Below are positions 1-12,374 of a DNA stretch of 64,000 bases, piece by piece (the first letter of the stretch is position 1; each line of letters begins with the position of its first letter). The position numbers were made by a program, and so were the translations under genes. The stretch is from Macromonas bipunctata (lineage in GTDB: Bacteria > Pseudomonadota > Gammaproteobacteria > Burkholderiales > Burkholderiaceae_C): positions 1 through 64,000 of the forward strand of contig NZ_NWBQ01000023.1 in NCBI RefSeq assembly GCF_002837135.1, given 5' to 3'. The notes below the pieces were generated by a model, which was not told the DNA's origin, searched no databases, and saw nothing but the letters and a program-made list of their open reading frames with translations.

Positions 1-1
1 C

Positions 2-1906
2 CTGGCCGCCCGCGCCCTGCCCGCAGCGGACGACGCCCGGCGCACGCCGTTGCGCATCCTGCGCCAGTACGTGCAGCTGGCGCAGGGCCGCAGCAGCGGG
101 CTGGCGGCGCTGACGCACGAGCTGCTGTTCTGGGCCGCGCAGGCCTTTGCCGGGCAGGACGAGGTGGCCAGCGCCCCGTGCTGGAGCGCGCTGCGCCGCG
201 CCTGGGGCAACGCCTTGCTCCCGGTGTGGGACTACCACGCCACCGTGCCCGACCCGAACACCAGCCCTGCCGATCTGGCTGTTGTGCCCCAGGCCGAGCC
301 ACAGTTGTACGGTGCTGCGATTGCCAGGACGCCATCCCCAGGTGTCGTCGATCCAGTCCCCGGCGGTGGTGACGGTGCTGGTACCGTGGTGGATGCGCTG
401 GACGTGCCACTGCCCGCAGCGCCCGGTGTGGCACCGCCCCTCGATTCGCCTGCCACCTGCGCTCCGGCAACCGCAATTGCAACGCCCGCCGGGGCGCCGG
501 GCCTGGCCGATGCCGTGGCGCCGATCCCGGTGCCGGTTGCGTCGGACTGGCTGCAGCGCCTCACGGCACACACTGGCGACGTGGACCACAGCCGCGCTCA
601 GCTCGAAGCGCAGTGGCACACCCTGCAGCACGCCTGCCACGACATGGCCTGTGAGTTGGAACGCTGGCGCGCGCAACTGCGCGACCTGGCGCCGGACGCC
701 CCCGCCGCGCCTGAGCTGGCCCGCTGGCTGGCCGCGTCGGTGCAAGACCTGGCCGCTGTGCAGCGCCGCTGGCAGCATGCCCTGACGCACACGGGCACCA
801 CGCTGGCTGCGCAGGCCCGCCACAGCCGCGCCCTGCAACAGGACGTGCTGCGCGCGCGCCTGTTGCCCGCCGACAGCATCACCGAACGCCTGCAGCGCGC
901 GCTGCGCGATGCCGCGCAAGCGCAGGGCACGCCGCCGATGCTGCTGGAGATCCAGGGCGGGGCGCTGATGCTGGACTGCGGCCTGCTGGAGCACCTGCTG
1001 CCAGTGCTGGAGCGCCTGCTGCGCCACGTGGTGGTACACGGCATGTCCATCCAGTCGCCCGATCCTGCGGCAGCCCTCCGTCCAGGCGATGCAGCGCACA
1101 ACGCCGACGCCAACGTTCCCTGCCGGGTGCCCGCTGCCCTCACGCTCGCGTGGCAGCAGCGGGGTCATGACATCAGCGTAGCACTTGCCGATGGTCACGG
1201 CGGTCGCGCCGGTGATGCCTGTGATACCGGTGGCGTGGGTGCAGTCTGGGCCGCCACCAGCGTGATGCCCACCACTGACGCCCCAGAGCCGCCTGCCTGC
1301 GCGCCGCCGCCATCACCCGCAGAAGCGCCAGGCCTGGACGCGCTGGCCCAGTGGGTGCGCCAGCTGGGTGGGCGCCTGCAAGGATCTTCCAGCCCCGGCG
1401 CGGGCACTTGCGTGGAGCTGGTGCTGCCGTGGTGCGCAGCCGTGACGCGCGTGGTGCTGCTGCGGGTGGCCGACGTGGTGCTGGCGGTGCCTGCGCCGTG
1501 GATCAGCGGCGTGCAGCGCGCCAGTGCCGCCGAGCTGGCGCTGGCCCGCGCCACGGGCCGCTGGGTGGCGCCTCATCCCGAGGGCAGCGTGCCGTTCGAG
1601 TCCGCGTGCGAGGTGCTGGGCTTGTTGCCCGCCGGCGAGTTGCCTGCGTCGGCCCATGAGCCGGTGCTGGTGTTCCACGGCGGGGGGCAGCACGTGGCCT
1701 GGCAGGTGGACGAGGTGCTGGGACACCAGGAGGTGTGGGTGCAACCCGCCGGGCCGCAACTGGCGCAGCTGCCCGGGGTGGTGGGGGCTGCGGTGCTGGC
1801 CTCTGGGCTGGTGGCGCTGCTGTACGACCCGGTGCGGGTCTCGGCCTGTTACCGCGTGTCCGACAGGAATCGAATAGCGATGCTAACCAATTGTTTTTCT
1901 AGGTGA
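2..1906 (+). CDS. chpA: ChpA/PilL-like chemotaxis kinase, 3' part, degenerate and truncated
   Basis: The frame is open from base 2, so the start lies outside the window. Around bases 880-1060 a segment (LLPADSITERLQRALRDAA ... LLRHVVVHG) matches the start of the ATPase region of ChpA-type kinases of the type IV pilus chemosensory system. A CheW-like domain follows at about 1440-1840 (VVLLRVADVVLAVPAPWISG). Two things are odd. The ATPase region lacks a clear N-box (LLRHVVVHG where families have LLRNAVxHG), and its G-boxes are replaced by low-complexity A/P/D/G sequence. The response-regulator domain that normally ends ChpA is absent. The last 15 or so codons, from base 1859, lie in the attachment core and island DNA, and the stop is inside the island. 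Probably a non-functional or altered kinase; the family call is fairly sure, the activity is not. Confidence 0.7.
   Translation: MAARALPAADDARRTPLRILRQYVQLAQGRSSGLAALTHELLFWAAQAFAGQDEVASAPCWSALRRAWGNALLPVWDYHATVPDPNTSPADLAVVPQAEPQLYGAAIARTPSPGVVDPVPGGGDGAGTVVDALDVPLPAAPGVAPPLDSPATCAPATAIATPAGAPGLADAVAPIPVPVASDWLQRLTAHTGDVDHSRAQLEAQWHTLQHACHDMACELERWRAQLRDLAPDAPAAPELARWLAASVQDLAAVQRRWQHALTHTGTTLAAQARHSRALQQDVLRARLLPADSITERLQRALRDAAQAQGTPPMLLEIQGGALMLDCGLLEHLLPVLERLLRHVVVHGMSIQSPDPAAALRPGDAAHNADANVPCRVPAALTLAWQQRGHDISVALADGHGGRAGDACDTGGVGAVWAATSVMPTTDAPEPPACAPPPSPAEAPGLDALAQWVRQLGGRLQGSSSPGAGTCVELVLPWCAAVTRVVLLRVADVVLAVPAPWISGVQRASAAELALARATGRWVAPHPEGSVPFESACEVLGLLPAGELPASAHEPVLVFHGGGQHVAWQVDEVLGHQEVWVQPAGPQLAQLPGVVGAAVLASGLVALLYDPVRVSACYRVSDRNRIAMLTNCFSR
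1859..1874. repeat. Attachment-site core, integrase-distal copy
   Basis: The 16 bases TCCGACAGGAATCGAA are identical to 12307-12322 inside tRNA-Arg (T-arm and 3' acceptor side). Identity stops exactly at both edges. The left flank is chpA coding sequence, not the rest of a tRNA acceptor stem. Confidence 0.85.
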
Positions 1907-1926
1907 AAAATTCACCATCACTTTGG

Positions 1927-1953
1927 AGATACCGTAAAAAGTACCGTGTTTTT
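1927..1953. repeat. Putative integrase arm-type site, left end
   Basis: A 27-bp sequence beginning AGATACCGTAAAAAGTACCG is identical to 12164-12190 beside the integrase gene. It lies about 55 bp inside the attachment core, whereas the right copy lies about 117 bp inside. Matching AT-rich repeats near both cores are what integrase arm-binding sites look like; the role is inferred. Confidence 0.65.
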
Positions 1954-2018
1954 TCAAAGTGTCCTTGAAATCCAGCACAAAACCGTGGTGCCGTATGGGG
2001 CAGGATGGCCGACTGTAT

Positions 2019-2293
2019 CGGCATGGTAGGTGGTGCCTGGCCACGCATACCACCCTATCGACAAACTCGACAAACTCGACAAACCGGGGTGGCTGGGGAG
2101 CCGCTGCACTACGCTGGCCTTTGGCATTTTCGTGACTGTCACGGTTTGGGGTGGCGCTGCACCATGCTGGCCAGTCCAAAAGGTTGACCTGTACCGGCAT
2201 GGCAGGTGGTGCCTGGCCACGCATACCACCCTATCGACAAACTCGACAAACTCGACAAACCGGGGTGGCTGGGGAGCCGCTGCACTGCGCTGG
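2019..2293. repeat. Two 99-bp direct repeats (P4 crr-like region)
   Basis: Copies at 2019-2117 and 2195-2293 differ at only two positions and are separated by 77 bp. Each contains a short tandem (ACAAACTCG twice, then ACAAACCGG) and a GGTGGT...ACCACC dyad. The whole stretch 1907-2428 has no credible gene; reading frames through it are just the repeat. In phage P4 the cis-acting replication region crr consists of two long direct repeats separated by a short spacer, far from ori, and the layout here is similar. It could instead be a packaging site, given its place beside the capsid gene. Confidence 0.6.
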
Positions 2294-2428
2294 TAAGGCC
2301 AAACGGTTGACTGCACCTGCCATCGTTACGCAGTAACGCGGATCCATCGGAACATCAATACGTCCGGTTTCGCTGCACCACATCACAACCCGGCACGGGG
2401 CCGGGTGTGGTGTTGGGATGGTGGTGAA

Positions 2429-3448
2429 TCAGCGAACGGTCACGCACATGGAAGCGTTTACGCGGTAGGGCACGATCAGCGGTGCCGACTGCAACATCAT
2501 GTAGCGCACCGCCGGGTCTTCATCGTCCCAGGACTTGGCGAAGTAGGGCACCGCCTGAAAACCGGCCTCAGCGTCTTTGATGGCGCCATAGCAACGCGTG
2601 CCTTCCAAATCGGGGCCAGTCAAGATCACGGTGTAAGGTGGCAGGTAGGGCACCTGGGCGTCGGTGTCGGGGTCGTTGAACCAAGACTGGTACACCCAAA
2701 TTTCCAAGTCGCCGATGGTGGCCATGTGGCGGCCACCTTCACCGGCCACGGCGGGGTTGGCGGTGGCGGTGCCGCGCTGGCGATCCAACAGGTCTTGCAC
2801 GCTGGGGGCGGCGCTGAAAAGCTGCCACGCCTTCAAGTCCATCACCACGATGTTGGCCAGGGCGCCGGATTTTTGCGTCACCAGCTTCGACCATTGGGCC
2901 AAGTCTTCCAGCGGGTCAACGGCGGCGCCCTCACCCCAGCGGGCGTCGTCCACCAGGCGAAGGGTCAAGTCGGGGTCACGGCCAAAATCGACCTCAACGC
3001 GCGGGTACATGGCCCCCTCAACGATGGTCTTGCCAGTGCGCAGCACTTCAGCGGCCATCAATTCTTGGCGGCGTGTGAGCATGGTGATTTGGTCGTTCAG
3101 CTCGCTTGCAACAGCGTGTTGCAGCCGTTGCGCGGGGGACGCCTCACCGCCAATGCGCTCGCCCATTGCGCGGATGAAGGGGCGGTTCGGGTTGAAGATT
3201 CGTTTGTCTTTGATGTACGCGGGCTTGAAGCTCTTGGTGGTGTAGCCCTGTGACTGCACCACTTGACCGGCCACCATAGGCGAAACAAACGGGGCCAAGC
3301 GGCGGCGGCGGTGTTCCACGTCGAACCGGATTTCCTCGGTGGCCTCAAGCTGCACATTCGGGAAAAACGAATTCAGCAGGAACGGCTTTTGCATCGGCTC
3401 CAGTGCAGCAACCACGCGTGCCAGGATGGGAGTAGCGAACATGTCCAT
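2429..3448 (-). CDS. Major capsid protein, phage lambda gpE family
   Basis: The 339-residue length and sequence match the Phage_cap_E family (lambda gpE, HK97 fold). The start MDMFATPILARVVAALEPMQ, the motif around EEIRFDVEHRRRRLAPFVSP and the C-terminal VRYMMLQSAPLIVPYRVNA region are typical. It would form the shell of the icosahedral head. The start codon overlaps the stop of the protease gene by one base, so the two are translationally coupled. No decoration-protein or head-tail genes follow; the element ends about 550 bp further on. Confidence 0.9.
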   Translation of the reverse strand: MDMFATPILARVVAALEPMQKPFLLNSFFPNVQLEATEEIRFDVEHRRRRLAPFVSPMVAGQVVQSQGYTTKSFKPAYIKDKRIFNPNRPFIRAMGERIGGEASPAQRLQHAVASELNDQITMLTRRQELMAAEVLRTGKTIVEGAMYPRVEVDFGRDPDLTLRLVDDARWGEGAAVDPLEDLAQWSKLVTQKSGALANIVVMDLKAWQLFSAAPSVQDLLDRQRGTATANPAVAGEGGRHMATIGDLEIWVYQSWFNDPDTDAQVPYLPPYTVILTGPDLEGTRCYGAIKDAEAGFQAVPYFAKSWDDEDPAVRYMMLQSAPLIVPYRVNASMCVTVR

Positions 3449-4587
3449 TACGCCACCTCGCCCAAAATGATGCGGCGGTAGTCGGCAACCATGCGGTCGG
3501 CCAAGTCTTCAGCGGTGGTAGCGGCTGGCACCGGCGCGGCTTTGGTGGGGGTGGCAAAACCGGCACTTTGCAGCACTTGCATGGCCAGGGCTTCGGCTTG
3601 CGCTTCTTGGCTGGTGGCGGCGCTGGCGCAGTGGACGGTTTGGTGGGTGGCGTGGCTCATCATGCGGTTCACTTTCGGGGTTACGGCGGTTGCCTGGTGG
3701 GTTGCGGGGAGGAAAACTTTCGGGGCGTTGCGGCGGCTGGCCAGCTCCGCTATCACGGCGTCGGTGGTGCCCACGCAGTTGGCCAGGCCAGAGGCTTGCG
3801 CAGCGTGGCCACGGAACAGGCGCGCTTGCGTGTTGCGCACCGCGTCAAAGCTCAGGCCACGGTATGCGGCCACGGCTTGCACAAACTCGGTGTAGAGGCC
3901 ATCAATCTCGGCTTGCCAGTCGGCACGCACCGACGCGGGCAGAGGCTCGTACGGGTTGCCGTCGATCTTGTGCGCACCGGCAAAGATGTGTGTCACCTTC
4001 AGGCCATCTTGTGCCAGGGCGGCGCTCGTATCGACGTGGCGCGTCACGACGCCGATGGAACCGGCGTAGCCCGTGGGCGTTACCACGACTTCATCGGCGG
4101 CGCTGGCGAGAAGGTACGCTGCGCTGGCGGCCATGCCGTCGGCAATGGCTAGCATGGGTTTGCGGCCACGCAATGCGGCCACGCGTTCGGCACACTCAAA
4201 AGCGCCTTGCACTTCACCGCCGGGGCTATCCAGGCACAACAGCACGGCGTGGGCGCCGGGGTCTTGCATGGCGTGTTCCAGGCGCGCAACGATGGCGTCA
4301 TAGCCCAAAAACCCGGTGCAGTCGGCATTGATGCGGGTGCGGTGTGCCAGGGCGCCAAAGATGTTGATCACGGCCACACCATCATGGACGGCGTAGGGTT
4401 CGCCAGCTTGCGCGGTGGGGCGGGTACTGAATGCTTCGGGCGCAGCGTGGGCGTTGCTGGCCACCGGCTGGCCTAGCAGGCGCTGCCCGACGGCGGCGAT
4501 CATGGCGTCCAACTTTTGCGGGTGAATCAGCAGCGGTGTGTTGAAGATGCGCGCGGCCAGGTGGGGGTAAATGGCTGGCACGGTCAA
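3448..4587 (-). CDS. S49-family phage prohead protease (lambda gpC-like)
   Basis: 379 residues. The N-terminus (HLAARIFNTPLLIHPQKLDA) is characteristic of phage head proteases of the SppA/SohB type. The core has the CLDSPGGEV and ADGMAASAAYLLAS motifs, the second carrying the catalytic serine, and TPTGYAGSIGV after it. In lambda, gpC processes the head and its C-terminal part is also made separately as the scaffold Nu3. Here residues from about 309 (MMSHATHQ) to the end are low in order and could be a scaffold segment, but no strong ribosome site supports an internal start. The start is TTG, overlapping the upstream stop (TTGA), with AAGGA close in front. Coupled to the capsid gene. Confidence 0.85.
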   Translation of the reverse strand: MTVPAIYPHLAARIFNTPLLIHPQKLDAMIAAVGQRLLGQPVASNAHAAPEAFSTRPTAQAGEPYAVHDGVAVINIFGALAHRTRINADCTGFLGYDAIVARLEHAMQDPGAHAVLLCLDSPGGEVQGAFECAERVAALRGRKPMLAIADGMAASAAYLLASAADEVVVTPTGYAGSIGVVTRHVDTSAALAQDGLKVTHIFAGAHKIDGNPYEPLPASVRADWQAEIDGLYTEFVQAVAAYRGLSFDAVRNTQARLFRGHAAQASGLANCVGTTDAVIAELASRRNAPKVFLPATHQATAVTPKVNRMMSHATHQTVHCASAATSQEAQAEALAMQVLQSAGFATPTKAAPVPAATTAEDLADRMVADYRRIILGEVA

Positions 4588-5255
4588 TCCTTGAATTTGA
4601 AAAACGAATCCGACACCAATGGCGAAACCGTGGCGTTAATCAATTGCCCGAATTCCTCCTTAATCTCCAAACGGTGGCGGTGCAATTCGCGCAATTCATT
4701 GGCGAATTCATCGGCCTCGGCTTTCAATTGGTCAACGCCGGGGCCAAGTACGGGCAGGTCTTCTACCACTTTGCGGGCAAATGATTCAATCTGGGCATCG
4801 GTCAAAGCCAGCGCGGCCAATTCCAGCACGGTCAAATTGTGCGACAGGATGTTAAGCGGTCGCGGCTCGCTGGTGGTTTCCTGAATTTCGCCCTTGGCAT
4901 TGATGGCGCCAAACTTGGCCAGGGGGCGGTGGTTGCTCAGGTGGGCGGCCTGGGCGGCGCGCTGTGCCAGCTTGCGGCGCGGCTCGTCTAAGGCGCGCTG
5001 GATATCGGCCACGATCAGCGCGGCGGCGTCGTTTTGGTTGACCTGACGGGCCACCACGGCCAGACGGTCGGTCTTGTCGCGGATAGCAGCGTCCACGGTG
5101 TCCAGGCCACGGCGGGCCTCTAAGCGCAGGTCGTCCAGGCGGTTGGTGATTTCGTCGCGCAAGCTGGTTGCGGTGGGTACGCCCTGTTGCGCTGGCATGT
5201 TGCTCAGGATGGCTTGCGGTGTGGTGGGCGTGATGGCGGTAAAGGTTTGCTGCAT
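4584..5255 (-). CDS. Unknown 223-aa satellite protein upstream of protease
   Basis: Charged, largely helical protein with a probable coiled coil in its middle and C-terminal parts (LRLEARRGLDTVDAAIRDK; ADEFANELRELHRHRLEIKE). The frame is open to 5315, but the ATG at 5255 is preferred because the longer version would overlap the upstream gene by 47 bp. Its stop overlaps the protease TTG start. Position directly before protease and capsid suggests a head-assembly role such as scaffold or size determinant (compare Sid of P4), but I recognise no family. Confidence 0.65.
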   Translation of the reverse strand: MQQTFTAITPTTPQAILSNMPAQQGVPTATSLRDEITNRLDDLRLEARRGLDTVDAAIRDKTDRLAVVARQVNQNDAAALIVADIQRALDEPRRKLAQRAAQAAHLSNHRPLAKFGAINAKGEIQETTSEPRPLNILSHNLTVLELAALALTDAQIESFARKVVEDLPVLGPGVDQLKAEADEFANELRELHRHRLEIKEEFGQLINATVSPLVSDSFFKFKD

Positions 5256-5268
5256 GGGTGTGGGGCGG

Positions 5269-5517
5269 TCAGTGGGCCTTGAGGAACGGGTGGTGGGCAG
5301 GGAAAACGGTCTCACGGATTAGGCCGGTCAACTGCACCAACCCGGTGGGGCTGGTCAATGCCGACAACAGCCATTCCACTTGATTGGAATTCAGGGTAGC
5401 GATCAATTCGCGTTCACCTGTAAACATTCCAATGGTGGCACCTTCCAAATTGGAGCGTACAGTCAAACCGGCGGGTATGGCCGAATGGGTTTGATGGTGT
5501 TGCATTGCATGATTCAT
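5269..5517 (-). CDS. Small hypothetical protein (82 aa), first of capsid-side operon
   Basis: 82 residues with no recognised domain. The stop is 13 bp before the ATG of the 223-aa gene, so they probably share a transcript. Two ATG codons occur at residues 1 and 5. Upstream (5518-5580) is AT-rich with GTAAAAT as a possible -10 element, but no clear -35. It does not resemble lambda gpW or a portal fragment. Confidence 0.5.
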   Translation of the reverse strand: MNHAMQHHQTHSAIPAGLTVRSNLEGATIGMFTGERELIATLNSNQVEWLLSALTSPTGLVQLTGLIRETVFPAHHPFLKAH

Positions 5518-5793
5518 GGATTTATTTTACCAGAATTAGGGGGTTGATAGGTATTGGTTATGTGATCTGGGTGAAATTTTTACCCTTGCTGAATTGGGCT
5601 TAATGGTTGTCGTTGCAGGTTGGTGGGTGAAATGGATCCAATGGCCAGGATTGAAATATCACCCCCCTGTAATTGGCCGGAAACTAGCGCGCGCGCGCCG
5701 GTCAATTCACCCTCGTAATTCAAGCTACCGGAGTACCTTTTGCAATAGGTCGGGGCTATGGAATGGGCGGTGGTGGTGGTGGCTGGGTGTCGT

Positions 5794-6000
5794 CCGTGGA
5801 ACCGTGAAATTTCTGGATATGGCCCGGTAGGTACGCTACAAAACCTACGAAACCTACCTTCGGACTCGTTTTCAGACTTCATCGGTACAGCATCCGTGGG
5901 GCTGTGAAATTTCTGGATATGGCCCGGTAGGTACGCTACAAAACCTACGAAACCCTGTTTTTCACTCCTTATCAGGGGTTTTGTAGGTTTCGTAGCGTAG
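5794..6000. repeat. Iteron and inverted-repeat cluster, putative replication origin
   Basis: A 61-bp unit occurs at 5794-5854 and again exactly 100 bp later at 5894-5954 with few differences. Each ends in tandem 9-mers of the form SCTACRAAA (GCTACAAAA, CCTACGAAA). At 5977-6000 the same 9-mers recur on the other strand, giving an imperfect inverted repeat of about 24 bp with the second unit. The cluster abuts the end of the replication genes, as P4-type origins often do. The hairpin could also act as an attenuator between replication and capsid genes. The wider gap 5518-6014 holds no gene. Confidence 0.6.
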
Positions 6001-6014
6001 GGGGTGCCGCGTTT

Positions 6015-7664
6015 TTAAGTTTTTTTCCCCTCCTTCATCACCAGCGGATGAACGATGTAGCGGTCACTGGGTCGCCCACCTTTGGCACTGACCTGTGCGG
6101 TCTCACGGGCCAGCCACCCGTAATCCGCCAGCAAGTCAGCGGCCTTGCGCACCGCGTCGGGTGTCACCAATCCGGCCCAATGCTTGACCGCCACCTGACG
6201 GGGTGTAAACGCATCACCCAGATGGCCCGCTTTGATCTTGGCCAGCAAGATGGTTGCCCCCGATGTTTCTGGCATCACGGCGGCGCTGTAAATCCGCTCG
6301 GCATGGCTTCGCAGGTATTTGCCCCATGCCAAGGCGCGCAACAGCTCGGCCTCGTGGATCAGGTTGCCTGACTCAGGCGTATCCACCAGGGCGAATATCA
6401 GCGCCAAGGCCGGTATCAGCTTGCGGTACTTGGCAAGGTGCGATACCAGTGCCGGATGGATTTCGTCGCCACGGATTTCGTTTTCAAATGCCGTTACCCA
6501 TTGCACGTAGATGGCTTGTGCACCGGGTGAAAAACGCCACTCTTGCGGCTCGTTGTCGCTGGTGGGTTGCAGTGTATTGAGCCGCTCGAAAACCTCCCAT
6601 GCGGCCTGTTTGGCGGGCGTGTCGGGCCATTGGTCAACGTACTCGAATTCGCGGGTAACGTCGGGCCAAACCGCAAGCCCAAACCGTTGCAGCAGTCCAT
6701 CATCACCGCCCCCGCCTGATACCGCATCGCGGATGTAGCTTTGGAGTTTGCCGGGTTGCATGCCACCCAACATGGCCAAGCACACCCGTGGAATGCGTTG
6801 TGTGCCCCTGCCGATGCGGTCAAAGGTGTAGCCCTGATTGCCGTCGTAGGCTTGCAGGTAAAAGGCACGGCTACCCTCTTGGCCTTGCTTGTCCAAACTG
6901 CACAACAGTCCGTGTAATTCGTCACGGTACGCCAGTAAGCCCCACGGGTTGTTCATCAACACTTCACCCAACTTTTCCACTGTGGCATCGTTGACGATGT
7001 AGCGGCGCTCTATGGGCCGGGGTGCCGTTTGCGTTGCACGCAGCAACTCACGGGCGGCGGTGGGGTCTTTGGCGGCCAGCTTCTTGGCTTCTTTTTCCCG
7101 TGATTCGCTGGCCAGTGCCTCCACGCGGTTATCCAAGTCCCACTCCTCCATCGCTGCCTTATGGAATTGCAGTTCATCGGCCTCCATGCGGTGCAACGGC
7201 TTGATGGCTTCACCCATTGCGGGCGACTTCATTACGCTGGGCCTACCAACGATCAGTCCCCACAGATTTGGCACCACGGCCCAATCGTCGCGCGCTTTTG
7301 GCTTAACCACAGCGCGGGCACCTACGAGGCTAGACAGTGCTGCCACAGCGCCCACAGCGGTGAAGTCGGGCGGGCATTGCATCCGGTGGGCAATGTCGGC
7401 CACCCAGGCGCGCAAGGCTTCGGGCAACAGTTCAACATCAAAGGGCATTACAGGTGGCAAGGCATCGGGCAGGGGTACCGGCTCGGGCCAGTCTTCAGCC
7501 GGGGCCGTATCAGCGTCGGGCATGGCGTTGCTGCCACTCAGCGCGGCGTTGATGGACTCCACCACAGCGGCGGGGCCGTGGGCGTTTTCCAGATCGTTGA
7601 AGTCGCTGCCGTCCAACCGGTCGTTGGCGGTGGTCAAGTCGGGAAAAATTTCACTGCGGGCCAT
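6015..7664 (-). CDS. DUF3987 (YfjI-like) replication protein
   Basis: 549 residues from the ATG at 7664, which has an AGGAGG site at good spacing; an open frame upstream to 7853 is ignored. The DUF3987 family (about 450 residues) is found in phages and mobile elements beside primases and is thought to supply a helicase-like P-loop ATPase role. Visible family blocks are VAALSSLVGARAVVKPK, LWGLIVGRPSVMKSPA (P-loop position), GLLAYRDELHGLL and RVCLAMLGGMQPGKL. The C-terminal 80 residues look like a winged helix. The start overlaps the primase stop by 14 bp, so the two are coupled. Confidence 0.85.
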   Translation of the reverse strand: MARSEIFPDLTTANDRLDGSDFNDLENAHGPAAVVESINAALSGSNAMPDADTAPAEDWPEPVPLPDALPPVMPFDVELLPEALRAWVADIAHRMQCPPDFTAVGAVAALSSLVGARAVVKPKARDDWAVVPNLWGLIVGRPSVMKSPAMGEAIKPLHRMEADELQFHKAAMEEWDLDNRVEALASESREKEAKKLAAKDPTAARELLRATQTAPRPIERRYIVNDATVEKLGEVLMNNPWGLLAYRDELHGLLCSLDKQGQEGSRAFYLQAYDGNQGYTFDRIGRGTQRIPRVCLAMLGGMQPGKLQSYIRDAVSGGGGDDGLLQRFGLAVWPDVTREFEYVDQWPDTPAKQAAWEVFERLNTLQPTSDNEPQEWRFSPGAQAIYVQWVTAFENEIRGDEIHPALVSHLAKYRKLIPALALIFALVDTPESGNLIHEAELLRALAWGKYLRSHAERIYSAAVMPETSGATILLAKIKAGHLGDAFTPRQVAVKHWAGLVTPDAVRKAADLLADYGWLARETAQVSAKGGRPSDRYIVHPLVMKEGKKT

Positions 7665-8505
7665 GTGCGGCCTCCTGTTGTTGTTTGGCGGTTTTGACGG
7701 ATGGGGGTACCGCCACGGCGGCACCAATGGCGCGGGCGGTTGCGTGGGCGGCATTGAGGCCAGCTGCATCACGGTCGGCGCACACCACCATGCGTACGTC
7801 GGGGAATTTGGCGCGCAAGGCCAGTCCAACGGGTAGCAGGTTGTTCGCTGCAAGACACACGGCCACGGCGTAACCGGTGGTCACGGCCAAACTGGCACCA
7901 GTGGCGAAGCCTTCGCACAGCAGCAGCGCGTTCTTATCGGCCACTTGCCCGATGGCGTGGTAACAGCCTTTGATGCGGCCATCTTTCAAAAACCGTTTGC
8001 GTTCATCGGGCTTGATGAATTGCAAGGTGTGCAGCGTTCCCGCGGTATCGCGGGCGGGCACCAGCAACGTATCGCCCAATTGGCGCAAGCCGTAGGGCGG
8101 AACGAAGCCCTTGACCGCCAGATAAGGGTGCCTGGTATCCACTTGGGTGGCGCGGCCCCAGAGTCGTTCCGCTTTGGCGCGGGCTTCGGCCTGTACGCGG
8201 GCTTCTTCGGCATCGCATGCAGCTTTGGCGGCGGCCATGCGGCGCTTCAGTTCGGTTTGTTCGGCCACGGTCAACCGGTTGTTGCCACCGTCGCGCCAGT
8301 GGTGTTGTTCCCCGGTTTTCCACGATCCAAAGTTGGCAAAGGCCGGGCGCTCATCGTCGTGCAGCGATACCCAACCGTTCAAGCTGCCGGGTTTGTCGCC
8401 CTCCACTCGATAGCGGTGCAGCACGCCACCACCGACGGCGGGCAGGTCTTTGGCCGGGGCAAGGCCAGCAGCACGCATGGCATCCAACAGGGTGGCGCGA
8501 ATCAC
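7651..8505 (-). CDS. TOPRIM primase (P4 alpha-type primase domain)
   Basis: 284 residues. The TOPRIM core is clear: ALLLCEGFATGASLAV holds the catalytic glutamate and DVRMVVCADRDAAG the DxD. Upstream is the RNAP-like part (HPYLAVKGFVPPYGLRQ). No cysteine zinc finger is seen at the N-terminus. The GTG at 8505 is chosen because it makes a 4-bp GTGA overlap with the previous stop and has GAGG in front; a longer frame to 8532 exists. In P4 the primase, helicase and origin-binding functions are one protein; here primase and the ATPase partner are separate. Confidence 0.88.
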   Translation of the reverse strand: MIRATLLDAMRAAGLAPAKDLPAVGGGVLHRYRVEGDKPGSLNGWVSLHDDERPAFANFGSWKTGEQHHWRDGGNNRLTVAEQTELKRRMAAAKAACDAEEARVQAEARAKAERLWGRATQVDTRHPYLAVKGFVPPYGLRQLGDTLLVPARDTAGTLHTLQFIKPDERKRFLKDGRIKGCYHAIGQVADKNALLLCEGFATGASLAVTTGYAVAVCLAANNLLPVGLALRAKFPDVRMVVCADRDAAGLNAAHATARAIGAAVAVPPSVKTAKQQQEAAHGPQ

Positions 8506-8816
8506 TCTTGCACCTCGCTCAAATCGCAGCACAGCGCGGCCATTTCATCCGCCACGCGGTCCAGCACGGTGGTGGCGATTTGGTCGTCCAACGCGGGGCC
8601 GCTGGCCAGGTTGTGCAGGTGTTGCGCGTTGGGGTGTTGTTGCAGGGCGTGGGTCAAGTCGCGTAAGGTGCGGTCAGCGTTGATGGCAAAGGCGCACAGC
8701 TTCACCAGCTCTTGCAGGTGCGCAAGGCGGTTTTGCGTGGTCTTGAGCGTGCGGGCGGTGTCAGCGGGCAATGCAGCAGCTTGAACCGGGGCTGTACCGG
8801 CTTGTTTTTTGGTCAT
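8502..8816 (-). CDS. Hypothetical 104-aa satellite protein
   Basis: ATG start, no recognised domain, mostly helical (TLKTTQNRLAHLQELVKLCA). The stop overlaps the primase start by 4 bp and the gene follows the 78-aa gene by 14 bp, so it is inside the replication operon. Similar-sized unknowns sit before primase genes in many satellites. Confidence 0.6.
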   Translation of the reverse strand: MTKKQAGTAPVQAAALPADTARTLKTTQNRLAHLQELVKLCAFAINADRTLRDLTHALQQHPNAQHLHNLASGPALDDQIATTVLDRVADEMAALCCDLSEVQE

Positions 8817-8830
8817 GGCGGTGGTGCCTG

Positions 8831-9067
8831 TTAGGCGGGGGTTTTGTGGTTGCGGGTGGCGGCTTCGGTGGCGGTGCAGGCGCGTTTGACGGCGGTTGCG
8901 CTGCGCATGGTGGGGCCAGTGACGGCGTGCAGGTCGGCCACCGTCAATGCACGGTGTTGGGCCTGTGCCAGCACGGCCAGCGCCTTGTGCATTTGCACGC
9001 TGGCTTGCTGCAACAGGGCCAGCGCCTCAGCGGGCAAGGGCATGGCTTTGTGGATGGTGCCGTTCAC
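8831..9067 (-). CDS. Hypothetical 78-aa satellite protein
   Basis: Start GTG at 9067 overlaps the upstream stop (GTGA). The helical N-terminal half (LALLQQASVQMHKALAVLAQ) and basic C-terminus suggest a small nucleic-acid or protein-binding factor, but no family is recognised. Confidence 0.55.
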   Translation of the reverse strand: MNGTIHKAMPLPAEALALLQQASVQMHKALAVLAQAQHRALTVADLHAVTGPTMRSATAVKRACTATEAATRNHKTPA

Positions 9068-9303
9068 TGCAACACCTCCACGCCCACGTATTGCACAGCG
9101 GCCATTGCGGCCAGCGTCAGTTTTTGGGCGCGTGCCATGTCGGGGCTGGCCTTCTTCAGCTCGTACATGACGCGCTGGAGGGCGTTCTCGATATTGGCAA
9201 TGGCGATCAGATCGCGGTTGAAGTCGCCAGTGTGGGCGGGGAAGGTTTGCCCGTGGTGGGCGGTTTGCGCGCTGGTGCGCACGGATGCGGCTTGCATCAT
9301 CAT
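9064..9303 (-). CDS. Hypothetical 79-aa satellite protein
   Basis: The ATG at 9303 has GGAG about 8 bp upstream and is followed by a helical, alanine-rich protein. The same frame stays open upstream to 9828. A longer form beginning near 9613 (MMAVKFCRHNSRK) is possible and would sit where P4 carries its ash/eta-type regulators, but its composition looks non-coding and I prefer the short form. Confidence 0.5.
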   Translation of the reverse strand: MMMQAASVRTSAQTAHHGQTFPAHTGDFNRDLIAIANIENALQRVMYELKKASPDMARAQKLTLAAMAAVQYVGVEVLQ

Positions 9304-9673
9304 GGTTTTGGCTCCGTTATGAGACTCAGGAACCACTCGCTGCACCTTCACATACAACGGGTGGGCAAGATGTTGAAGACACGGATAACGCCATGCGGCC
9401 AGCCTCACGGAATGGCCCATCTTGCCCAAAACCACGCCACCACCGGTATTCCGGTAGCGGTCAACCGCCTGAAACCTCAGACGATCATGAAATTTGGACA
9501 CAACAAAACCCACTGTTTCGTCGTGGGTTGCAAACGCGTTATCGAAGGTGTCTTCACACACCGGGCCGTTAGGCTTGCGGCTATTGTGGCGGCAAAACTT
9601 CACCGCCATCATTGAAAATGTCTTAAAATCCTTCCTTGTCGATAGCGGTTTTTGCTTTGGCGGTAAAACCACA

Positions 9674-9710
9674 ATGGCCCTCGGTGTAGCTCCACTGGGG
9701 GCCATTTTTT
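9674..9710 (+). terminator. Plus-strand hairpin with U-tract in alpA-distal leader
   Basis: AATGGCCC ... GGGCCATT hairpin (9674-9706) with an 18-nt loop, followed by a run of T on the plus strand. No plus-strand gene precedes it. The gap 9304-9809 otherwise holds no gene I trust. A short antisense transcript ending here, opposite the leader of the replication operon, is one explanation; P4 immunity uses a small RNA from the equivalent place. Confidence 0.5.
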
Positions 9711-9809
9711 TGGCCAAACGGTCGGGGCACCGCTTGCGGTCGCGGGCGCGGCGGCGCTCGTCACGCCGGGGTGGTTTGTTGCGGGTGTGGATCACGGTGG
9801 CCACTCCCG

Positions 9810-10049
9810 TTAAGCCGTGGCGGCGCATTGGTTGATCCAGGCGCGCACGTCACCGACCCTCCACGCAGTAACACGCGGCGACAACTTCAGCGGCTTCGGG
9901 AAGCTGCCTTCTCGCACCTTGCGCCACAAAGTTGAGGAACTGAAAGGCAGGGGCGCGGCCACGTGGCGGTTCTGCACCAAACGGGCTTCGCGGATCAGCG
10001 CACTGTCCGGCAGGGCGTCGAACGGGCGGCGGATGGGGCGTACTTGCAT
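9810..10049 (-). CDS. AlpA-family transcriptional activator/excisionase
   Basis: 79 residues from the ATG at 10049 with AAGGA in front. LIREARLVQNR ... FSSSTLWRKVREGSFPKPLK ... VTAWRVGDVRAWI is the AlpA signature (MerR-like winged helix). In satellites and prophages AlpA proteins activate integrase/excision or the replication operon. Upstream (10050-10156) is AT-rich with a run of nine G and probably carries its promoter. One of the most reliable markers that the element belongs to the P4/PICI group. Confidence 0.88.
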   Translation of the reverse strand: MQVRPIRRPFDALPDSALIREARLVQNRHVAAPLPFSSSTLWRKVREGSFPKPLKLSPRVTAWRVGDVRAWINQCAATA

Positions 10050-10156
10050 GATGATTCCTTGAATACCGCTGCAACGTGGCGGCATGGGTTGGCATCATCA
10101 TGAAAAGCAAACTGCAAAAAAAGGGTAGATATTGGGGGGGGGTGATGTTTCGGCAA

Positions 10157-10762
10157 CTATTTTTCAGTTGAAAGTTGTCGCAACGGTTCAAGGCCACGCC
10201 ACACAGCGGCTTTGATGGTCGTTACCAATCTTGCGTTAATTTCAAGCTGTTCCCGACGGCGGCGGCGCAGTTCGTTGCGCGGATCAGCGGTAAGCCCTAT
10301 TTCTTTGGCCATGAGATCCAACAGATTCACCATGCGGGATGTCTCGCTTGTGGAAAACTTGACACCGTAGTGCAGCAGCAAGGGCACCACACAGTCCACA
10401 AATTCGTCTAAGCCGGGTGTCACACGTTTGCCGACTGTGCTGGTATGGCCAGCCTTGTCCATAAGCTTTTTCACGTCACGGCGCTGGAGTTCGTGCTCTT
10501 TTCTGTTGCCAAAGTTGCCCATACGGACGGCTACGTGCAAGATTTCAGCCGCTTCGGGGTTCTTCAGCTTTTTGGCAATCTCTGCCATCAGCAAGGGTGA
10601 AAAACGCGGTACACCCAACGGATCGGCAATGCGCTCGTGGAATTGTTCGGCAATTTGCTGCCGATAGAACGCCACCATTTCGTGAGACTCTGGTTTGAAG
10701 GTGGGGCACGCCTTGAGTAGTTGGCACAGCACACCAGCGGGCGCGGCCTTGTCGGTTGCCAT
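10157..10762 (-). CDS. Hypothetical 201-aa satellite protein
   Basis: ATG at 10762 with AAGGA spaced 6 bp (an open frame to 10813 is ignored). Basic, helical protein with no recognised domain; the C-terminus is rich in arginine (ELRRRRREQLEINARL). It lies between integrase and alpA, where satellites often keep a repressor or anti-phage gene, but nothing in the sequence identifies it as either. Confidence 0.6.
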   Translation of the reverse strand: MATDKAAPAGVLCQLLKACPTFKPESHEMVAFYRQQIAEQFHERIADPLGVPRFSPLLMAEIAKKLKNPEAAEILHVAVRMGNFGNRKEHELQRRDVKKLMDKAGHTSTVGKRVTPGLDEFVDCVVPLLLHYGVKFSTSETSRMVNLLDLMAKEIGLTADPRNELRRRRREQLEINARLVTTIKAAVWRGLEPLRQLSTEK

Positions 10763-10899
10763 TCGCGTTCCTTGTATCGCCCCTTGAAATGAAAAAACGC
10801 GCCAGCCGGTCAAGGTGTCCGGTGTTTCGCCAGTGGGGATCAGTCACGGGCTAGGCGCGTTGTGGTGGTCATTGTGGCACGTCTTGGGCCGGTGTGCGG

Positions 10900-12120
10900 T
10901 TACGCGGCCCGGTGCAGTGGCACCACGTCGGCACCTTTGGCCAATTGGTCAAGGTAGTCGGCCCAACGCTGCATCATGGCTTTGCGCGCGGGCAGGTGGG
11001 CGGTGCGGTTGTAGGCGCGTCCGTTGGCATCTTTGACGCTGTGCGCAAGCTGGTGTTCGATCAAATCCACACGTTCGCCCAGCACCTCGTCCATGATGGT
11101 GCGTGCGGTGGCCCTGAAACCGTGGGCGGTGTGTACGTCACCGCTGTAACCCATGCCACGCAGTGCAGCGTTCACGGTGTTTTCACTCATAGGTCGTGCG
11201 CTGGTGCGCAGGCTGGGGAAGATGTATTTGCCGTGGCCGGTAATGGCGTGCAGCTCGCGCAAGATGGCCAGGGCTTGCGTGGCCAGTGGCACCACGTGGT
11301 CGTTGCGCATCTTCATCTTGGCACCGGGTATGCGCCACTCTGCGGCTTCAAAATCCACGTCGGCCCATTCCCCGGTGCGCAGTTCGCCGGGGCGCAAAAA
11401 CACCAGTGGCGACAGTTTCAGCGCGGCCATGCAGTACGGGTGCCCGCTGTACGCGGCAATGGCGCGCAACAGTGCGGCCAGCTCCGCCGGGTCGGTAATG
11501 GCGGCGTGGTGTTTGGTTTCGGTTTTTTTGTACGCATCGTGCAGGCCCGCTGTTACATCGCGTTCGGCACTGCCTTCGGCCACGGCGTAGCGAAACACTT
11601 GCCCGCAAATCTGGCCTATGCGTTTGGCGCTTTCGCCCACGCCACGGGCCTCCATCTTGCGCACCACGGCCAGCACGTCGGGCGCGGTAATGCTGGTGAT
11701 GGCCATGCGGCCAATCTGGGGGTACACGTCTTTGCGTAGCCAAGTGGCCACTTTGTTGCGGGTGGCTTGCCCACGGTCGGATGCTGTGGCCTCTAGCCAG
11801 CGGTCGGCCACCACTTGAAAGGTGTTGGCAGCGGCGGCGGTGGCCTCCAGCTTCGCTTTGCGTTTGGCTTCGCCGGGGTCTGTGCCTTTGGCCAGCAGGG
11901 CTTTGGCGGCTTCTCTGGCACGGCGGGCATCGGCCAGCGTTACCGCCGGGTACACGCCGATGGCCAGCGTCTTGCGCTTGCCCAGCACGGTGTAGTCCAT
12001 GCGCCAATATTTGCCAGCCGGTTTAACCAGCAGGTACAGGCCACCGCCATCGGCGTATTTGTCGCCAGCGGGTTTGCCGGTGGGCTTGCTTTGCTTGATG
12101 AAGGTGTTGGTCAGTGCCAT
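10900..12120 (-). CDS. int: Tyrosine-type integrase, arm-binding DUF4102 (P4) class
   Basis: 406 residues. The N-terminal DUF4102 arm-binding domain reads KYADGGGLYLLVKPAGKYW and KRKTLAIGVYPAVTLADAR. A SAM-like core-binding domain is in the middle. The catalytic domain has the full set: Arg in FLRPGELRTGEW, His/Arg in TAHGFRATART, His in EHQLAHSV and the nucleophile Tyr in AYNRTAHLPARK. Length is normal and no defect is seen, so the enzyme should be active. It lies 180 bp from tRNA-Arg and is transcribed away from it, as usual for tRNA-targeting integrases. Confidence 0.95.
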   Translation of the reverse strand: MALTNTFIKQSKPTGKPAGDKYADGGGLYLLVKPAGKYWRMDYTVLGKRKTLAIGVYPAVTLADARRAREAAKALLAKGTDPGEAKRKAKLEATAAAANTFQVVADRWLEATASDRGQATRNKVATWLRKDVYPQIGRMAITSITAPDVLAVVRKMEARGVGESAKRIGQICGQVFRYAVAEGSAERDVTAGLHDAYKKTETKHHAAITDPAELAALLRAIAAYSGHPYCMAALKLSPLVFLRPGELRTGEWADVDFEAAEWRIPGAKMKMRNDHVVPLATQALAILRELHAITGHGKYIFPSLRTSARPMSENTVNAALRGMGYSGDVHTAHGFRATARTIMDEVLGERVDLIEHQLAHSVKDANGRAYNRTAHLPARKAMMQRWADYLDQLAKGADVVPLHRAA

Positions 12121-12133
12121 GCCTGTGTGCCCA

Positions 12134-12190
12134 TTTACGGTATCTGGTTTTGTGCGGTACTTCAGATACCGTAAAAAGTACCGTGTTTTT
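12134..12190. promoter_or_regulatory. Integrase upstream region with inverted repeat and arm-type site
   Basis: A perfect 13-bp inverted repeat, TTTACGGTATCTG at 12134-12146 and its complement at 12163-12175, flanks 16 bp. The right arm continues into the 27-bp repeat (12164-12190) shared with 1927-1953. It lies directly upstream of the int ATG, so integrase binding here could control both recombination and its own expression. Function inferred from position and symmetry. Confidence 0.65.
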
Positions 12191-12232
12191 GGTGGGTTGT
12201 CGTGCTATCCATTGGCATGAAATGACACAACA

Positions 12233-12267
12233 AAAAACCCGCTGCCCTAGGAGGATAGCGGGTTTTT
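12233..12267. terminator. Bidirectional terminator between integrase and tRNA-Arg
   Basis: Perfect 11-bp stem AAAAACCCGCT / AGCGGGTTTTT with a 13-nt loop; U-tracts result on either strand. On the minus strand it lies 33 bp after the tRNA 3' end and would end tRNA transcription before int. It is inside the element, so the element supplies the tRNA terminator. Confidence 0.85.
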
Positions 12268-12299
12268 GGGGTGATATGACACTTGATGAAATAACTTGG

Positions 12300-12374
12300 T
12301 GGTCTCTCCGACAGGAATCGAACCTGTATTTGCCGCTTAGGAGGCGGCCGTTCTATCCATTGAACTACGGAGAG
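12300..12374 (-). tRNA. tRNA-Arg (anticodon CCT)
   Basis: Folds as a full cloverleaf: acceptor CTCTCCG / CGGAGAG, anticodon stem GCCGC / GCGGC with loop CTCCTAA (anticodon CCT), T-arm CAGG TTCGATT CCTG, discriminator A and encoded CCA at 12300-12302. It reads AGG codons. Its 3' half is the integration target of the satellite, and its first 10 bases overlap the end of tamB. Confidence 0.95.
12307..12322. repeat. Attachment-site core within tRNA-Arg
   Basis: Right copy of the 16-bp repeat (other copy 1859-1874), lying in the T-arm and 3' acceptor side of tRNA-Arg(CCT). The tRNA is intact, which means the 3' end of the tRNA is supplied by the element. Confidence 0.85.

Follow-up and report, generated by a model that had tools for sequence, protein, structure and literature searches.

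How a satellite that encodes a capsid protein of its own comes by the rest of its particle is the question raised by an integrated element in Macromonas bipunctata. This element, here called element A, lies in a 64,000-bp stretch of DNA (contig NZ_NWBQ01000023.1, positions 1 to 64,000; hereafter the window), is bounded at both ends and measures 10,448 bp from core to core, with identical copies of the 16-bp attachment core TCCGACAGGAATCGAA at 1859-1874 and 12307-12322, the right copy lying within a tRNA-Arg(CCT) gene (12300-12374). A preliminary description, made from the sequence alone, had read it as a satellite with integrase, AlpA, primase, a DUF3987 protein, a lambda-E-type capsid protein, an S49 protease and two unknown proteins of 223 and 82 aa (u223 and u82). 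All of these were confirmed by Pfam and PHROG comparison, the two unknowns being without a match in either. The explanation that we favour, tentatively, is that element A is a Gram-negative phage-inducible chromosomal island (PICI) with a shell module of capsid, protease and scaffold substitute, which would borrow portal, packaging motor and tail from a helper phage.

The genes u82-u223-S49-capE form a tight cassette and, like all assigned genes of element A, lie on the minus strand. The capE gene (2429-3448) codes for the lambda-E-type major capsid protein of 339 aa (PF03864, E 1.1e-67; phrog_29, E 1.2e-86) and the S49 gene (3448-4587) for a head maturation protease of 379 aa with a short C-terminal tail (PF01343, E 9.5e-34; phrog_53, E 7.2e-104); they are preceded by u223 (4584-5255, with a possible alternative start at 5315), coding for a satellite-specific helical protein and candidate scaffold or size factor, and by u82 (5269-5517), coding for a small protein. 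The open reading frames (ORFs) overlap by a few bases at the u223/S49 and S49/capE junctions. Comparison of element A with a second satellite, B, by the NG86 method gave ratios of nonsynonymous to synonymous substitution rates (dN/dS) of 0.21 for capE, 0.23 for S49, 0.30 for u223 and 0.26 for u82; judged from these values, the cassette genes of both look to be under purifying selection, which speaks against chance or decay. The lack of portal, terminase and tail, which the preliminary description had pointed out, was borne out: PHROG comparison and tblastn revealed no gene for a portal, a terminase, a decoration protein, a connector or a tail in element A, tblastn with the large terminase (TerL), gpW, portal, D, FI and partial tape measure sequences of a related prophage found none of them there, and small terminase (TerS) queries gave nothing significant. 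Profile comparison of u223 and u82 with portal, TerS, gpW, D, FI and scaffold revealed no relation either; a portal or terminase among the unknown proteins, which would have undone that description, was thus not seen.

The cassette is not confined to element A. Satellite B lies in the same genome, on contig 48, and its cassette is identical to that of A at the level of 80% for capE, 88% for S49, 75% for u223 and 70% for u82, its integrase being another one and its replication genes differing in part; one of its ends lies beside a displaced tRNA 3' end, recognised by eye, and the other runs off the contig. This second satellite had been missed by the preliminary description, as had the int-alpA RNA and the genes u218, u254, u78 and u104 of element A. 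Satellite C, from Malikia granosa P1, spans 13,143 bp including a transposase gene and is flanked by 19-bp repeats, of which one lies in tRNA-Thr. Identity to element A amounts to 46% for its integrase, 53% for its primase, 36% for its u223 homologue, 63% for capE and 26% for its u82 homologue; DUF3987 and u83 are present as well. The transposase gene of C, which by eye we take to be IS30-like, is located at 8603-9637 of locus L101, directly before the u83-u223-capE cassette. A further member, L107, is a 2.6-kb contig fragment from IMG/VR that shows the u223-capE junction as in C, without S49 in between, and has capE in two frames. The capsid tree unites A and B in one clade (100/100) and places C with a Malikia prophage (100/99); it thus does not show the satellite capsids to have a single origin.

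Phage and prophage loci with related capE were organized differently. Among the best 80 of 501 such loci in IMG/VR, 62 had at least 3 kb upstream, and portal was present in 61, S49 in 60 and a D protein in 55 of these 62; u223, u82, AlpA and an integrase of the A type occurred in none of the 80, and one locus, L027, had a primase-like match. A capE relative was found in 6 of 399 genomes of the family, two of them carrying A/B and C, respectively, and a portal is present at the four loci that remain; in the class sample it was found in 5 of 369 other genomes, with S49 upstream in each. The lambda-type prophages G458 and G651 of Comamonadaceae resemble element A in capE (63-64% identity) and S49 (59%) but differ from it in having TerL, gpW, portal and D as well as a longer S49 protein with a scaffold block. 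The 14-kb record MT836000 (capE 52%) was considered as a satellite and rejected: no satellite protein was seen in it, and its D-like gene, which lies between S49 and capE, and the large ORFs that come later give it the look of a phage fragment.

Within the cassette, the capsid protein is complete and the protease is shortened. The three satellite CapE proteins can be aligned over their whole length, the N-terminus included, with 14 phage CapE proteins, their length being as in phages and the satellite/phage identities across the aligned set ranging from 57 to 79%. The S49 region following the catalytic domain comprises 93 residues in A and 86 in B, as compared to 110-228 residues in 62 of 73 phage S49 proteins, and the conserved scaffold-type block present in phage S49 is absent from both. 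That the satellite protease might still contain the last helix of the scaffold was also considered and set aside, the comparison giving a weak hint (hhalign probability 1%). Furthermore, u223 is kept in C and L107, in both of which no S49 was found between u223 and capE, and this persistence where S49 is gone makes u223 the best candidate for a scaffold or size factor. Scans with a few peptide patterns, which distant relatives can escape, matched u223 in no phage or plasmid record, at one locus in GTDB contigs (Malikia) and in IMG/VR in L107 alone. In two order samples of 300 and 399 genomes, the scans returned the genome of element A itself and one weak, unconfirmed match per sample, G176 (E 5.5e-4, in a 1083-aa frame) and G226 (E 6.8e-4, with a stop), which were dropped as probable chance matches.

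A likely packaging region was recognised in satellite C, which shares a stretch of 74-83% identity with lambda-type phages (best E 6.7e-10) located just before the terminase genes. Its cos-like 18-mer, GCGGGTAATTCGARCCGC, is followed by a TerS gene (194 aa; 42-44% identity to phage TerS; E down to 2e-34). The same 18-mer occurs in 89 IMG/VR stretches, and in the 80 examined TerS follows in 62 of the 73 with room and TerL in 52 of 55, some of the counted contigs having also supplied TerS queries. From its sequence, satellite C likely carries a phage packaging start and its own small terminase, with no recognisable motor. The prophage nearest to C by capE, G458, is without the 18-mer, so that C is a mosaic.

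Two of the 80 cos loci proved to be satellites themselves, L163 and L171; besides integrase, AlpA, primase and cos, they have a TerS-like gene and a fusion of protease and capsid. The fusion capsids belong to other families, namely PF25209 and, in L171, the HK97-type PF05065 with an S78 protease. L171 comes from a viral metagenome set and is complete: a 69-bp terminal overlap of positions 1-9145 yields a circle of 9,076 bp, hinting at an excised or concatemeric form. The cos pattern was present in 11 of 399 family genomes and yielded L246, an element of 9,643 bp with the same plan between 46-bp repeats at tRNA-Met, its integrase match being weak. Scans with the L246 and L171 fusions returned 82 loci, of which 67 have TerL or portal, 12 are cut too short and three are satellites (L247, L248 and L171). 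The PF25209 fusions match the NCBI model 'prohead protease/major capsid protein fusion' strongly, at a score below its curated cut-off. Between protease and capsid core, the spacing is 196-203 residues in four PF25209 satellites as compared to 280 in seven phages that are nearly identical; two unclassified loci have 237 and 242. In total, the plan was found in nine elements (A, B, C, L107, L163, L171, L246, L247 and L248) and with three capsid families; the scaffold stretch is shortened in two of the three, protease stands beside capsid in members of all three, and portal or large terminase was found in none of the nine, L107 being a fragment, L163 lacking its ends and B being cut.

A cos and/or a TerS-like gene is present in C, L163, L171, L246, L247 and L248; no TerS was seen in L246. 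The TerS-like proteins of L163 (82 aa, reverse complement 5992-6240) and L248 (98 aa, 8878-9174) consist of the helix-turn-helix part alone and recall the Rpp proteins, which mimic the DNA-binding domain of TerS (PMC6739421). Of the remaining cos loci, L238, L241, L242, L244 and L245 were partly examined. In L238, two exact copies of the cos 18-mer, at 9897 and 10301 and thus 404 bp apart, lie beside an int-alpA RNA, AlpA and a large primase, and no capsid gene was seen in the part examined.

Following this, we propose that a lambda-type phage, infecting or induced, would trigger AlpA and the excision of element A from tRNA-Arg, as expected from known PICIs, and that the primase and the DUF3987 protein would replicate the element. 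The u82-u223-S49-capE cassette would supply capsid protein, maturation protease and, in u223, a substitute scaffold or size factor standing in for the scaffold block missing from the satellite protease. These proteins might form procapsids, or mix into procapsids, begun on the helper portal, into which the helper large terminase would load satellite DNA from cos before the helper tail is added. Helper use, shell formation, a smaller size, the role of u223 and the cos packaging of A and B are what we infer. Extending this proposal to all nine elements, we put forward with some reserve that a modular subclass of PICIs may exist in which each of three unrelated types of capsid (lambda-E with S49, PF25209 fused to protease, and HK97 fused to S78) has become a shell kit exclusive to satellites, the lambda-E group with u223 as a new partner, with procapsids built on a borrowed helper portal and motor, halfway between capsid-redirecting satellites and the capsid-forming PICIs (cf-PICIs).

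Several findings weigh against the proposed shell module. Neither a cos, sought by motif and by comparison with the phage loci examined, nor a TerS was found in A or B, and blastn of the two noncoding stretches of A against phage records gave no cos. The draft genome of the host has no lambda-type portal or TerL, which means that no helper of that type is resident and that it must come from outside. As for the scaffold, profile comparison lent no support to u223 as a homologue of phage scaffolds, and its structure model was too poor (mean predicted local distance difference test score 43) for a structure search or for showing a scaffold; of the structure predictions for both unknowns, suggested in the preliminary description, the u82 model had no PDB match at E 0.001 or better. 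Moreover, 11 of the 73 phage S49 proteins are likewise short-tailed (0-25 residues; cut or truly short), the protease gene was not found in C, and in the PF25209 satellites the linker alone is short and the helical segment is kept. In the HK97-type satellite L171 the fusion protein of 615 aa is not shorter than that of the phage L199 (622 aa), which rules out scaffold shortening as a general rule. In the relative that has been studied best, the Escherichia coli island EcCICFT073, deletion of the capsid gene had no effect on transfer or interference, and all packaged DNA was phage-sized (PMC6092414).

This last result leads to the strongest alternative, a real if somewhat doubtful possibility, in which element A is a cos-type PICI packaged as concatemers of about four copies in full-size helper heads, and transfer does not depend on capE and the genes beside it, which serve as a reserve copy, slow the helper mildly or are captured cargo kept by some other selection. 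PICIs are reported to form phage-length concatemers of about 45 kb and to have dispensable capsid genes (PMC10111431), PICMIs (phage-inducible chromosomal minimalist islands) package concatemers as well (PMC10803314), and four copies of A (4 x 10,448 = 41,792 bp) could fit a head of phage size, the length of several IMG/VR phages with related capE being 44-50 kb. However, the purifying selection apparent on all four cassette genes, the retention of u223 and protease beside the capsid gene and the recurrence of the plan with three capsid families speak against this alternative. It is unlikely, secondly, that the satellite CapE never builds a shell alone and co-assembles with helper CapE to steer a smaller one. 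Such a part is played by the capsid homologue Ccm of SaPIbov5, which fills the pentamers of T=4 procapsids with hexamers of helper protein (PMC8569155); in its favour, the identity between satellite and phage CapE is 57-79%, and C and L107, without a protease, would depend on that of the helper. By contrast, both a protease and a capsid protein of full length are retained in A and B, which favours real shells over a pentamer plug of the Ccm type, and L163, L171 and L246-L248 have protease and capsid in one chain. Finally, it is highly improbable that element A is a deletion remnant of a lambda-type prophage, the one-off origin against which the preliminary description had set its own reading, since, despite the identity of capE (63%) and S49 (59%) to a Malikia prophage and an atypical left attachment junction, its replication and regulation genes are those of a PICI, both its ends are complete, its ORFs are intact and the dN/dS ratios given above are low, and its recurrence in B, C and other elements of the same plan, as independent copies at tRNA-Arg, at tRNA-Thr and beside another tRNA end, largely refutes that origin.

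The remaining genes of element A are arranged as follows. Between u82 and the DUF3987 gene an interval of 497 bp (5518-6014) has no convincing gene, and its position is equivalent to that of cos in satellites C and L246. The DUF3987 replication protein (6015-7853; PF13148, E 4.6e-90) and the Toprim primase (7651-8532; PF13362, E 2.4e-08; phrog_2249, E 1.5e-53) are preceded by the ORFs u104 (8502-8816) and u78 (8831-9067), both with partial homologues in B, by u254 (9064-9828), which is common to B (48%) and without Pfam match, by the AlpA regulator or excision factor (9810-10085; PF05930, E 5.3e-10), by the ORF u218 (10157-10813) and by the tyrosine integrase of 406 aa (10900-12120; PF00589, PF13356 and PF22022). 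An int-alpA RNA (RF02996, 52.7 bits) lies on the minus strand at 10782-10861; it is also present in B (L006 9387-9464), C (L101 812-890) and L238 (891-970) and was absent from L163 and L171 at the gathering score, and it may mark part of these satellites. In C, a Proteo-phage-1 RNA (RF03044) scored slightly above the cut-off at L101 12043-12117, between capE and the attachment site. A protein family before the capsid cassette is shared by B (L006 3339-3764), C (L101 8065-8613), L163 and L246, with blastp E values of 3e-26 between C and B, 1e-16 between L163 and L246 and 5e-6 between C and L246, and weak matches in A (E 0.02-0.05).

At the ends of element A, a 27-bp repeat lies just inside either boundary (1927-1953 and 12164-12190) and possibly serves as an integrase arm site. 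The noncoding stretch downstream of capE (1875-2428) contains repeats seen by eye, among them a stretch of about 70 bp in two near-identical copies between the left core and capE (window 2030-2290). At the left junction (window 1700-1880) the core abuts the 3' end of the flanking gene and not a displaced tRNA end. This left flanking gene is presumably chp/CheA-CheW-like, and TamB is the label that we assume for a flanking gene of the element. The two flanks lie about 14.5 and 28 kb apart in the two relatives that have both on one contig, and in three relatives a tRNA-Arg with the same core, or one mismatch to it, adjoins the right-flank gene. From these sequences, the left end has likely undergone a deletion or a secondary recombination.

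If the proposed shell module holds true, it would give a function to some, at least, of the PICI capsid genes that seem idle and would make it testable how the shell of one genome fits the portal, motor and tail of another. A protease without the scaffold block, together with a complete capsid protein and a new partner, would represent a natural experiment in head-size control, and the cos 18-mer of C would be a handle for finding such satellites as well as the phages that share their packaging site.

As compared to known satellites, element A fits Gram-negative PICIs better than P4. It has the PICI traits of an own integrase with a specific attachment site, an AlpA-type regulator, a primase module, a size within about 10-20 kb, one gene direction and a lone major capsid gene. 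None of its proteins compared (10 with Pfam and 10 with PHROGs) matched P4-like genes, Sid and Psu being the markers of P4. The division of labour that the preliminary description had taken to be undescribed has in fact precedents. Of 29 reference Gram-negative PICIs, 21 have a major capsid gene, which transfer does not require (PMC10111431). EcCICFT073 resembles A in integrase, AlpA, primase, a size of about 11 kb and a PF03864 capsid, with portal, TerL, S49 and TerS undetected; it has two cos sites and is packaged from cos by lambda-type helpers (PMC6092414). It differs from A in its capsid (29% identity), in having decoration protein D, SSB and a D5-type primase and in being without S49 and u223. 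Its capsid stretch was found in 588 of 5426 E. coli genomes, and the one inspected besides CFT073 has the same island plan. An own capsid without portal or terminase is, in view of these islands, a known kind, and the distinct class foreseen in case of recurrence stands in part: the plan does recur in nine elements with three capsid families, but a lone capsid is already common in PICIs. PmCI172 of Pasteurella, likened to A from its description alone, has a major capsid homologue and is associated with small heads, the responsible gene not being identified in that article (PMC6092414). SaPIbov5 shares with A an own capsid homologue and the use of helper machinery for the rest, has a cos site and uses the homologue to shrink helper heads (PMC8569155); it differs in its Gram-positive host, in an island with no identified protease, and in an HK97-type capsid homologue, Ccm, which is without a long N-arm and cannot make shells alone (PMC8569155). 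Such N-arm shortening is not shared by the three satellite CapE proteins, as seen from their end-to-end alignment. The cf-PICIs encode an own capsid and head protease like A and, unlike A, also portal, connectors, TerS, TerL and HNH, needing tails alone (PMC10690885). Within the literature searched, to which PMC12409344 also belonged and outside which most subscription papers and preprints lay, these Burkholderiales elements, u223 and PICIs with protease-capsid fusions were undescribed. Within that scope, what is apparently new is the retention of the protease, the shortening of the scaffold stretch in two of the three capsid families, the partner u223 and the use of unrelated capsids. Taken all together, the shell kit of element A is fuller than that of EcCICFT073 and smaller than that of the cf-PICIs.

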